Below, piece after piece: positions 1,008 to 4,770 of a stretch of 64,000 bases of DNA. The translations under genes were made by a program, and so were the position numbers. The notes under the pieces are model-generated. The model worked only from the letters and a program-made list of their open reading frames with translations. It made no database searches and had not been told where the DNA came from. Positions within the stretch are counted from its first letter, which is position 1; each line of letters starts with the position of its first letter. Source of the stretch: Methanolobus sp. ZRKC5. Lineage in GTDB: Archaea; Halobacteriota; Methanosarcinia; Methanosarcinales; Methanosarcinaceae. Location of the stretch: positions 1,240,001-1,304,000 of the forward strand of contig NZ_CP151792.1 in NCBI RefSeq assembly GCF_038446525.1. Reading direction: 5' to 3'.

Positions 1008-3407
1008 TCAGATCATGTCTGAAGAGCTATAGCGCATCCTGTCTGCAAGCTCTTGCTTCTTTGCATTATTCCATCCACCAACGGCCTGGACATACCCGGT
1101 TACCCTTGACATCTGCTCGACATTAGATGAACCACAGTTCTCACAGACCTCCTTCAAGCCGGACATCATATGGAAATCATTAAGGCACACAGTCATATCC
1201 TTGGTGAAAGCAAAGTAACCCACCTGAGTGTTCTTTGCAATGTTCATTGCAAATTCTTTAAGTCCCTTTGCATCCGGTGCACCTTCCCCCATCCATATAT
1301 GGCAGATGTTTCCACCGTCAACAATCGGGAAGAACACATGCTCGATATTTATCCTGTCAATCAAAGAAACATCCGCACCTGGTGGCACATGAGTACCGTT
1401 GGTGTAATAGACGGGCAGATCATGGGTCTTTTTGAGATTTGCAAGAGCAGCTTCACTGTCACCCTTTACAACTTCCACGACACAATCCCTGTATTCTTCA
1501 TGCAGCATGTCTGATACCGCAAATCTCTGGCCCGTGGTTTCAGCAGGAGTACGGGCAAGGGCAATCTCCATACCATGTTTCTGGCTGAGCTCGTTGGCAT
1601 ACATTTCCATCTCGGTCATCACTCTGATGGCAAACTTGAATGCATTTCTGGATTCATGCATCTGAGAACCAGTATGGTACTGAACCATTTCATTGATACC
1701 GATAACACCCATCGTACAGACAAGTGCGTCAATATCGACTGCAATGCAGCCCTTCTCACCTGTAACAGGATCCTTTGGTCTCTGGGTGGCAAATGGCATC
1801 CTGTTGTTCTCGATGATATTCTCCATCCAGCTGCGCTTTGTCTTAAAGAGAGTTATACACTGATCCATGAGGTTCTTCAGGTCACCGAACAGAGCAGAAT
1901 CATCTCCATTTGCCCTGTATGCCGCCCTTGGGCAGTTGAGGGATACGACCTGCCAGGAACCCATAGAGAAATGCTTTCCATCCTTGAATATGAGCTTGTC
2001 ATCAAAACTGTCATCTGCATCAGCATTTGCTGAGAACTGATATGCACAGCACTGATAACAGGAAATTCCCTCACCTGCACCCCTATATTCAGGTAGCTGA
2101 TTATCGAAATATGGAGTACCGAACTTTGCTGCAAGTTCAAAGGTCATATCATAGAGTTGCTCGTAACCAAGCAGATCAGGATGTGCCTTGTTAAAGAACT
2201 CATCTTCTTCCATGAAGTCTGGCTCTATGGATATTTCAGGCTTAGGGAAATTGAAAGGTTTGCCCCAATTATCACCCTCTAACATCACATCCATAAGTGC
2301 CTGGAAAGAGAGACGTACCTCACGCTCAAACTCGCTATAGGTGCGCTTTTGGGTACCGTTTGTACCATCATGCACACGCCCCTTGTAGACAACTGGCTTA
2401 TCCTTCCAGAGTTTTGGTACACCCGGAGACAGCTGAACGGAGGAGAACACGACCTGCCCACCACGAGCTACCATCATCTGAGTCATCTCATACACGAACA
2501 TTTGCATGAGCTGCTTTACATCATTATAATTCTTGCCTTCAAGGTATGGAGCAAGGAATGTAAGGAAATTGTAGAATCCCTGGCCACCTGCGAAGTTAGT
2601 CTGTGCGCTCCCAAGAGCCTTCACTGCATGAAGTATAGCTACCTCTGCCTTCATAGCAGGACCGGCTACACTTGCCTTTGCACCTGAACCATCAGGCATG
2701 AGGCCATAATAGAAGAAATACCTGAGGTCCCAGTCCTGGCAGAAAGCACGGGTTCCGAGATACTCAAGATCATGAATATGAATATCGCCATTAAGATGCA
2801 TGTCAGCGATCTTCGTTGGCAGAAGAAGCAGATACTGTTCTTTGGATATCTTGTCTGCCTTCTTCTTATGGGAAGTCTCGGCATTTTCCTGCAGATTTGC
2901 GTTGTCGTTTGCTTCAAAACCACTTCCAAGATCGATCTCGCATGCATCATATACCGGAGTACCTATCCTAGTAGAAACATTTCTCCACTCAACATGCCCT
3001 CTCTGGAGAAGCTCCATGTTAACGATCTCCCTTATAAGTGGACCTGAAAGGAATTTAAGGTCAAGGGATCTGACACGGCGCTCTACTTCTTTTGAAATGT
3101 CGTAAGCTTCATCCTTTTCGATTCCAGGTTTGCCGTGGAACCTTTCAGCAAGTTTTGTTTCCTTCAGTAACTGATTGACAATGACATTGCGGTCCCAATC
3201 AACCATGTGTCCTGCTGTGGTTCGCACTTTTGGCATTATAGAGATATCATGGCCATCGAGCGTCTTCTGTATAGCATGCTGTTTTGTTAATGATGTCATA
3301 CTGATATCTATCCTCTCATCTTCCTCTGCGCGAACCTGTTTGCCAGTTCCCAAGTCTGACCTGTCAAGTTCTATTTTTCCTTTTGTATTAGTAGCACATA
3401 CGTCCAT
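1008..3407 (-). CDS. nrdD: Anaerobic (class III) ribonucleoside-triphosphate reductase
   Basis: Glycyl-radical enzyme that reduces ribonucleotides for DNA synthesis without oxygen; about 799 residues. An ATP-cone domain lies at roughly residues 35-130, the catalytic barrel follows with active-site cysteines in ISCYQCCAYQFS, and the radical glycine lies in RVTGY near residue 771. The reading frame could open at a GTG at 3416, but that GTG is part of the ribosome binding site GAGGTG (3414-3419); ATG at 3407 has a 6-base spacing and is preferred (3410 is possible). The C-terminal metal site is unusual: CENC is present but the preceding CxxC pair is reduced to a single Cys (CLND). nrdH lies upstream and nrdG downstream. 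A thioredoxin-like NrdH serves as electron donor for the characterised Methanosarcina class III enzyme. Confidence 0.93.
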   Translation of the reverse strand: MDVCATNTKGKIELDRSDLGTGKQVRAEEDERIDISMTSLTKQHAIQKTLDGHDISIMPKVRTTAGHMVDWDRNVIVNQLLKETKLAERFHGKPGIEKDEAYDISKEVERRVRSLDLKFLSGPLIREIVNMELLQRGHVEWRNVSTRIGTPVYDACEIDLGSGFEANDNANLQENAETSHKKKADKISKEQYLLLLPTKIADMHLNGDIHIHDLEYLGTRAFCQDWDLRYFFYYGLMPDGSGAKASVAGPAMKAEVAILHAVKALGSAQTNFAGGQGFYNFLTFLAPYLEGKNYNDVKQLMQMFVYEMTQMMVARGGQVVFSSVQLSPGVPKLWKDKPVVYKGRVHDGTNGTQKRTYSEFEREVRLSFQALMDVMLEGDNWGKPFNFPKPEISIEPDFMEEDEFFNKAHPDLLGYEQLYDMTFELAAKFGTPYFDNQLPEYRGAGEGISCYQCCAYQFSANADADDSFDDKLIFKDGKHFSMGSWQVVSLNCPRAAYRANGDDSALFGDLKNLMDQCITLFKTKRSWMENIIENNRMPFATQRPKDPVTGEKGCIAVDIDALVCTMGVIGINEMVQYHTGSQMHESRNAFKFAIRVMTEMEMYANELSQKHGMEIALARTPAETTGQRFAVSDMLHEEYRDCVVEVVKGDSEAALANLKKTHDLPVYYTNGTHVPPGADVSLIDRINIEHVFFPIVDGGNICHIWMGEGAPDAKGLKEFAMNIAKNTQVGYFAFTKDMTVCLNDFHMMSGLKEVCENCGSSNVEQMSRVTGYVQAVGGWNNAKKQELADRMRYSSSDMI

Positions 3408-3432
3408 CATTCCCACCTCAATTTGATTGCAT

Positions 3433-3684
3433 TTAGATTATACTACCCAATACTTCCAGGTTCACGTCAGGGCCATTGAACAATTCCTTATGTGTTAAAA
3501 ATTCATCGCCGATCTGAAGTACCGGGGCAGTCATGGTAAAAACACCATTGAATTTAAGTTCGGTCAAAGCTTCAGGAGTAGACATATCTGCAGTTGTGAA
3601 AGCAACTTCCTTTGACTTAAGTACCTTCTTTAATTGCTCGCATTTCGGGCAAGTCTTTGTTGTATATATAACCACTTCAACCAT
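3433..3684 (-). CDS. nrdH: Glutaredoxin/thioredoxin-like electron donor NrdH
   Basis: Small redox protein of 83 residues with the active-site pair Cys12-Pro-Lys-Cys15 near the N-terminus and a thioredoxin-like fold pattern (VEVVIYTTKTCPKC, later APVLQIGDE with the cis-proline). In Methanosarcina barkeri the equivalent protein in the same operon passes electrons to class III ribonucleotide reductase. An ATG six codons further upstream (3702) is in frame, but AAGGGA lies between the two ATGs and would serve the downstream one at 3684, so I take the shorter form. It is the first gene of nrdH-nrdD-nrdG, 25 bases before nrdD. Confidence 0.87.
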   Translation of the reverse strand: MVEVVIYTTKTCPKCEQLKKVLKSKEVAFTTADMSTPEALTELKFNGVFTMTAPVLQIGDEFLTHKELFNGPDVNLEVLGSII

Positions 3685-3702
3685 TTTCTCGTGTCCCTTC
3701 AT

Positions 3703-4101
3703 TGTATATAATTAATTTATTATATTATTGTCATTCTGGAGAGAAACAACAATGCCATTTGAAAAAACACAATCAAAAGGCATTGTCATAATAATTACCT
3801 TGTTCACCAGAGGGTAAATTATACAAATGACATATAGCTTAATAATGGTTTTTCAAACTGCGTTTGAATATACAAGAAACAATATTAATACCATATATGA
3901 AACATGTTTGATAACATATATGACACAGTATTGGTGTTATATGTATTTTATAATAATAAATATACGCAGACCAAGATTTGCCCCCAACAAAAAAAAAGCA
4001 AGCAAAAAGAAAGACACATAAAGAGAACTGCAATAACATTGCCAAAAGATGTATATCATTAACCCTATTATAGCACATAATCCGATCAAGGGGTGTAAAA
4101 G
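3703..4101. other. AT-rich gap between nrd operon and radB
   Basis: Very AT-rich spacer between two divergent transcription units. It holds the nrd inverted repeat at 3749-3786 and probably both promoters. Two overlapping open frames on opposite strands (3827-4021 and 3839-4078) have no ribosome binding site and low-complexity translations and are not counted as genes. An A-rich run with AAGC repeats lies near 3990-4015. I see no RNA gene. Confidence 0.5.
3749..3786 (-). promoter_or_regulatory. Inverted repeat upstream of the nrd operon
   Basis: Two 13-base arms, ACAATGCCATTTG (3749-3761) and CAAAAGGCATTGT (3774-3786), match as an inverted repeat at 12 of 13 positions around a 12-base AT-rich centre. 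It lies about 65-100 bases upstream of the nrdH start. An AT-rich TATA-like stretch (about 3712-3727) lies between it and the gene. The position fits an operator or activator site for nrdHDG. The binding protein is unknown, and it could instead be a transcribed hairpin. Confidence 0.4.
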
Positions 4102-4770
4102 ATAACTAAACAACTAAGCTCCGGCTGCAAGCCAATCGATGAACTTCTAGGAGGAGGATTTGAGGCAGGAGTCGTGACACAGATATATGGAGAAGCCGGA
4201 AGTGGCAAGACTAATTTGTGCCTACAACTTGCAGTTGAATGTGTCAAAGCTGGAAAAAAAGTCATCTATATAGATACTGAAGCTATTTCCCCTGACAGAT
4301 TCAAACAAATTGCCGGAGAGAATGCAAAGGAGATAGCACAGCAGATAATCATCTTTGAACCTCATAATTTTGAAGAACAGTATGCTGCTGTCAAAGAAAT
4401 AGAGAAACTCATCTTGGAAAATATCGGCCTTATAATAATAGATTCTGCAACTGCTTTTTACAGATTAGAGCTTGATCAGGAAGAATCAAGCATAAGGACC
4501 AGAAGGGAATTGGCAAACCAGATAGGTTTTGTACACGGTATCGCACGCAAACACAGGGTTGTAGCTGTTATGACCAACCAGGTCTACAGCGATATTACCA
4601 CTGGCAGAGTAAGACCAATCGGCGGTAGTGGCATAGAGCACATATCAAAGACCATCGTCCAGCTTGAAAAAACAGGAGATGGCACAAGACGTGCAAAACT
4701 CTGGAAACACCGTTCACTTCCGGAAGGCAGGACCTGCAAGTTCACCATTACCGGTGAAGGTGTAAGATAA
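4102..4770 (+). CDS. radB: DNA repair and recombination protein RadB, ATA start
   Basis: RecA-family ATPase paralogue of RadA, involved in recombinational repair; 222 residues. Walker A is GEAGSGKT (residues 30-37), Walker B LIIID ends at about residue 114, and the conserved N-terminal block SSGCKPIDELLGGGFEAG is intact. That block lies upstream of the first usual start codon in the frame (GTG at 4174), so translation must begin earlier. The frame is open back to a TAA at 4096-4098, and the only plausible initiator in between is ATA at 4102, six bases after a GGGGTG ribosome binding site (4090-4095). Starting at the GTG would remove the residues just before Walker A. It ends 8 bases from convergent trmI. 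Confidence 0.88.
   Translation: MTKQLSSGCKPIDELLGGGFEAGVVTQIYGEAGSGKTNLCLQLAVECVKAGKKVIYIDTEAISPDRFKQIAGENAKEIAQQIIIFEPHNFEEQYAAVKEIEKLILENIGLIIIDSATAFYRLELDQEESSIRTRRELANQIGFVHGIARKHRVVAVMTNQVYSDITTGRVRPIGGSGIEHISKTIVQLEKTGDGTRRAKLWKHRSLPEGRTCKFTITGEGVR

Follow-up and report, generated by a model that had tools for sequence, protein, structure and literature searches.

A conserved AUA codon as the probable start of radB in the Methanosarcinaceae

Which codon starts radB in Methanolobus sp. ZRKC5? The gene, which encodes the recombination mediator RadB, lies in the 64,000-nt stretch of NZ_CP151792.1 analysed here (the window, to which all coordinates refer; the host genome is closed, 3.05 Mb). 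An earlier note on this stretch had proposed that radB begins with ATA at 4102. We consider it likely, at a probability of about 0.8, that radB is initiated at this AUA, behind a strong Shine-Dalgarno (SD) sequence and on a short leader, and that selection has kept the codon weak so that little RadB is made.

The start region of radB in the window

From position 4090, the radB region reads GGGGTG TAA AAG ATA ACT AAA CAA CTA AGC. Reading of the frame bore out what the earlier note had described, namely a stop at 4096–4098, no ATG, GTG or TTG before 4174, and an ATA at 4102 placed six bases after GGGGTG, which is one base away from the GAGGTG that is usual in the family. The elements of the region, all on the plus strand, are as follows.

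4042–4059, plus strand: BRE/TATA-like promoter element (BRE, B recognition element) CCAAAAGATGTATATCAT, with CCAAAAGATGTATAT at 4042–4056; conserved in five close Methanolobus
4090–4095, plus strand: SD sequence GGGGTG, with a 6-nt spacer to ATA; family consensus GAGGTG
4096–4098, plus strand: in-frame TAA, which closes the frame upstream and rules out any upstream in-frame start
4102–4770, plus strand: radB coding sequence as read from ATA, 222 aa plus stop (stop codon at 4768–4770)
4102–4104, plus strand: ATA, probable start codon of radB by position, SD spacing and conservation
4105, plus strand: position +4, a purine in 106/106 family genomes
4174–4176, plus strand: GTG, the first canonical codon in frame, codon 25 when ATA is codon 1; not likely the start
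4189–4212, plus strand: Walker A motif, GEAGSGKT, by sequence reading and alignment

An 18-codon overlapping open reading frame (ORF), running from ATG at 4049 to TAA at 4103–4105 and thus overlapping the ATA, was set aside because its ATG falls on the conserved TATA element and because the +4 purine alone makes ATA plus a purine contain TAA or TAG. Inspection by eye places a BRE/TATA-like element about as far upstream in most of the family, and the element is less clear in the genus g10 and in the genomes G020, G086 and G090. Transcription would begin at about 4078–4082, which would leave a short leader of about 20–25 nt.

The protein read from ATA scores above the cut-off of the NCBIfam RadB model TIGR02237 (253.2 bits vs 172.4) and misses that of a second RadB model, NF006861 (238.8 bits vs 278). 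These two RadB models are its best NCBIfam families, and the RadA models fall far under their own cut-offs. At 222 aa, the protein is an ATPase core without the RadA N-terminal domain, and it aligns to RadA/RAD51 chains only from about their residue 76–123. It belongs to the same protein family as the RadB proteins of other archaea (2cvf and Haloferax volcanii RadB). The solved RadB 2cvf aligns with it from residue 5 on; residue 4 of the window protein is the counterpart of the 2cvf N-terminal residue in this alignment, so that the window protein is slightly longer. Therefore, the stretch between the ATA and the GTG at 4174 is conserved protein that carries the approach to Walker A. The TIGR02237 match and the 2cvf alignment agree with the earlier note, which had placed a conserved RadB N-terminal block upstream of this GTG.

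The radB start codon in the family and in the order

We searched 111 genomes of the family and found radB in 107; the four genomes without radB are 60–72% complete. Starts were read in all 107. One of these, G034, carries a RadB with an Asn-rich insertion of about 100 residues after Walker A (L126, 601–1560), and owing to this insertion it was kept apart, so that the counts for the SD sequence, the tree and the expected changes below use 106 genomes. The start codon is ATA in 101 genomes, G034 included, ATC in six, and ATG, GTG or TTG in none. The six ATC genomes make up one genus, g10, and every other genus has ATA. Two genomes (G086 and G090) carry ATA ATA, of which the second was taken as the start. 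Since 100 other genomes of the family carry ATA at the homologous position, sequencing error or chance is excluded as its source. The earlier note had named the same codon in related genomes as a check, and had allowed that resequencing might reveal an ATG; the former strongly supports ATA initiation of radB, and the independent assemblies make the latter very unlikely. Beyond what that note had claimed, the AUA extends over the whole family, and purifying selection acts on it.

The selection is seen in a family tree built from radB without its start codon, on which changes were counted by parsimony; the counts, made on a gene tree, are approximate. The third base of the start codon changed in a single step, A to C in g10. 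Third bases of the seven other near-invariant Ile columns changed in 11–26 steps, and the median over 28 four-fold columns is 24. Among all 84 degenerate columns, none has fewer steps than the start column, and a Glu column with two steps comes next. Along the branches on which the start is ATA, rates drawn from the four-fold columns lead to an expectation of 8.2 A-to-G changes at the third base, where none is observed, and of 18.7 changes away from A of any kind, where one is observed. Thus, the start codon is kept weak by purifying selection within the family. As A-to-G would give ATG, the standard start, the codon is held against its easiest improvement.

The surroundings of the codon are those of an initiation site. 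An SD match of at least four bases at a spacing of 5–8 nt precedes it in 106/106 genomes scored, and in 95 of them this match is GAGGTG or GAGGTGA. The spacer between SD and ATA differs by 1–2 nt among genomes (5 to 7 nt), and the ATA remains in the RadB frame. The base at +4 is a purine throughout the family, vs 13 of 26 genomes in f6, an outgroup family that starts with ATG. In 26/106 genomes a stop codon lies within two codons upstream of the ATA, and TAA, TAG and TGA all occur, so that readthrough is disfavoured. In 20/106, the frame holds no canonical codon between the upstream stop and codon 29 inclusive; therefore, a canonical start is impossible in these genomes for any RadB that includes Walker A. 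The window genome stands outside these 20 owing to its GTG at 4174, and its upstream side is closed by the TAA. The distance from the ATA to the first canonical codon downstream ranges from 2 to 156 codons, depending on the genome.

We read 54 further starts in the other families of the order, designated f2 to f5. These assignments were made by eye, on the basis of the alignment and the SD spacing, and are less sure than those in the family; two f5 genomes were left out, G161 because its RadB is divided between two contigs and G167 because it gave no match. The 27 f5 genomes have 17 ATA, 5 ATT, 1 ATC and 4 ATG; the 4 f4 genomes, 2 ATT and 2 ATG; the 10 f3 genomes, 3 ATC and 7 ATG; and the 13 f2 genomes, 10 CTG, 2 TTG and 1 ACG, the last in a fragmented assembly (G136). 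The f2 loci with a CTG-, TTG- or ACG-like aligned start are L178–L183, L141–L146 and their sisters. Outside the order, the start is ATG in all 26 genomes read of f6, which is of the same class and has 35 genomes with radB, and in the one genome of f7. Among 20 further genomes of the phylum (of 144 with a match), 14 have ATG, three (from f18 and f12) have ATC or ATT with an in-frame GTG alternative, and three were given no start assignment. One fragmented genome of the same class holds a radB frame with one internal TGA (G192:C124:5389–6039). The distribution would fit a replacement of ATG by near-cognate codons at, or close to, the root of the order, followed by occasional reversion to ATG. 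By this reading, the family and probably most of the order would have kept an inefficient radB start since their common ancestor (AUA, AUC, AUU and perhaps CUG), as a selected non-canonical start that provides translational dosage control of homologous recombination and is possibly responsive to fidelity. We are evenly divided on this order-wide history, the odds of which are lowered by the frequent canonical alternatives in f5 and f2.

A proposed weak start and its alternatives

Is radB the only gene of this kind in the window genome? The pattern GAGGTG-N5-7-ATG has 109 sites there, vs 38 in reversed controls. There is no enrichment of GAGGTG-N5-7-ATA (42 sites vs 58) and GGAGGTG-N4-7-ATH has 31 sites vs 34. 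No second radB-like gene was found among the 42 GAGGTG-ATA places (41 loci) and 30 of the 31 GGAGGTG-ATH places examined, with SD patterns that are exact and strong only, which radB itself escapes with its GGGGTG and which leave cases with a weaker SD outside the scan. One ATT match (L278) looked open and was rejected, as it is antisense to a 240-aa ORF. The AUA start thus looks peculiar to radB as far as a scan for strong SD sequences reaches. The pattern GGGCTNATAACCC, which describes initiator-type tRNA arms, finds two genes in the window genome, both with CAT (anticodon CAU), and no special initiator tRNA, other tRNA architectures being outside this search. The two tRNA-Met(CAT) genes form a tandem pair at a distance of 200 bases (L302/L303, at about 1977424–1977636 of G000:C1). 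The archaeal fidelity factor aIF1 (PF01253) has ATG at its conserved N terminus, MSSEMC or MNSEMC, in 20/20 genomes.

We propose that pairing of the SD sequence positions the AUA on the ribosome, perhaps helped by the +4 purine. The ordinary initiator tRNA-Met (CAU) would read AUA with a mismatch at the third position, and the protein would probably begin with Met; initiation on AUA by Met-tRNA is likely because both initiator-type tRNA genes found carry CAU. The weak codon would limit the commitment of ribosomes and keep the output of RadB low. RadB may thereby be kept scarce relative to RadA, the recombinase that it helps to load, with dosage control as the presumed reason; within the family, selection holds the codon at AUA or AUC and bars AUG. 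A passage of PMC5480776 puts RadB in Pyrococcus furiosus at about 1/200 of the abundance of RadA and proposes that RadB promotes RadA polymerisation on DNA.

Several observations weigh against this reading. A canonical in-frame codon lies upstream of the ATA in 49/106 family genomes, and 57 are without one. In 27/106, a GTG falls within the SD sequence, three codons before the ATA; it is the sole such codon in 23 and is accompanied by others in 4. Other upstream canonical codons occur in 26/106, these 4 included, and in 18 the nearest is at least 15 codons away. In the other families of the order, ATG starts in 7/10 f3, 2/4 f4 and 4/27 f5 genomes indicate that a weak start is not obligatory everywhere. 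Of the 23 f5 genomes without an ATG start, 15 have a GTG and 2 an ATG close upstream in frame, and 6 have neither; an in-frame upstream GTG is also present in both f4 genomes with ATT and in all three f3 genomes with ATC. In f2, 12/13 genomes have an in-frame downstream ATG just before the conserved SG motif; in four genomes of this family an ATG stands directly behind the CTG, and G048 has neither alternative. Finally, the low RadB level was reported from an organism outside this order, P. furiosus.

The upstream codons, together with the place of GTG 4174 as the first standard codon and the expected choice of gene finders, speak for a canonical start of radB, either at GTG 4174 with a truncated protein or, elsewhere, at the GTG inside the SD sequence or at an upstream ATG or TTG. 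We regard this as highly improbable, given the stop codons close upstream of ATA, the 20 genomes with no canonical codon before Walker A, the scatter of the downstream canonical codons and the conservation of the ATA-to-4174 stretch as protein. The upstream ATG and TTG codons at least 15 codons away are probably outside the transcript, because they are located beside or upstream of the BRE/TATA-like element. It is a shade less probable still that the ATA owes its conservation solely to a DNA or RNA motif, such as an operator or a structure, with an incidental role as a codon: a conserved promoter is close by, but the sequence separating SD and ATA is variable, and its length shifts between 5 and 7 nt while the ATA keeps the RadB frame. 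Editing of the mRNA from A to I, by which AUA would be read as AUG, would account for the strict retention of ATA in most of the family. It is the least credible explanation, as the ATC of six family genomes and the ATT and ATC of other families cannot yield AUG in this way, and we know of no archaeal mRNA editing of the A-to-I kind.

A different alternative accepts the AUA as the start and gives it another purpose. The codon may be kept as a regulatory switch, by which the output of RadB rises when the fidelity of initiation falls, as is the case for IF3 with infC and sigR. The conserved combination of a strong SD sequence and a weak codon over a clade is the architecture of sigR, and the codon is also like that of infC, as both are described in parts of PMC5472188. 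As a DNA-repair gene, radB is moreover a plausible target of stress control. Against this, infC-type autocontrol, in which a fidelity factor has its own non-canonical start, was not seen for aIF1, with its ATG in all 20 genomes, and the strong-SD patterns with AUA, AUC or AUU brought no second radB-like gene in the window genome. Regulation via initiation fidelity is therefore a live yet weaker alternative to a fixed low level of RadB, and we think it unlikely.

Three ORFs are divergent from radB; their names, given by eye, are as follows.

3433–3702, minus strand: glutaredoxin-like ORF
1008–3416, minus strand: anaerobic ribonucleotide reductase-like ORF, 802 aa
212–1000, minus strand: radical-SAM-like activase ORF, 262 aa

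A block at 3814–3866, between radB and the divergent gene, is conserved and has a TATA-like element on the minus strand. It includes the dyad CAAAC-N3-GTTTG at 3854–3866, a possible operator, whose arms are kept in four of the five close Methanolobus.

Known systems and meaning

In bacteria, genes are known whose expression is limited by a non-canonical start codon. According to passages of PMC5472188, an ATT or ATC start holds the expression of bacterial infC down under autocontrol by IF3, and Streptomyces sigR has a GTC start with a conserved AGGAGGTG, where a canonical codon instead overproduces SigR; the start is GTC in 32/34 and GTT in 2/34 Streptomyces. In radB we find the features that mark these genes, which are the lack of a usable canonical start (20/106), a strong SD sequence and a codon kept by selection. 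Like radB, sigR has a conserved non-canonical start behind an extended SD sequence (AGGAGGTG in sigR), and the stoichiometry with a partner protein matters. It differs in being bacterial, controlled by IF3, started by GTC and confined to one genus, whereas radB is archaeal, has AUA or AUC, and shows this in a whole family and perhaps in much of an order. The likeness to infC lies in the ATH start codon; however, the product of infC is itself the factor that selects against the infC start codon, and RadB is a recombination mediator. To our knowledge, archaeal initiation works without IF3.

What appears to be new is a start of this kind that is archaeal, AUA, family-wide and possibly order-wide. 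Passages of a start-codon comparison over bacterial and archaeal genome groups give one AUG-to-AUU switch among 61,358 ancestral AUG starts (PMC5622118), and the term 'AUA' is absent from its text. Passages of a review of archaeal initiation (PMC7531240) name AUG, GUG and UUG, and 'AUA', 'AUU' and 'non-AUG' are absent from it; 'radB', 'ATA' and 'AUA' are likewise absent from the main text of a ribosome profiling (Ribo-seq) paper on Methanosarcina mazei (PMC11456600). A literature search, with subscription papers, supplements and protein-database comments outside its reach, brought no report of the radB start codon.

For annotation, gene finders limited to ATG, GTG and TTG would return a shortened radB in this family, or none at all. 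An AUA that is held family-wide and never becomes AUG is direct evidence of selection on initiation strength in archaea, and raises the question of how archaeal initiation accepts a near-cognate codon at one gene. If our reading is true, substitution of this one base in a genetically tractable methanogen should lead to more RadB and upset the balance of RadA to RadB.
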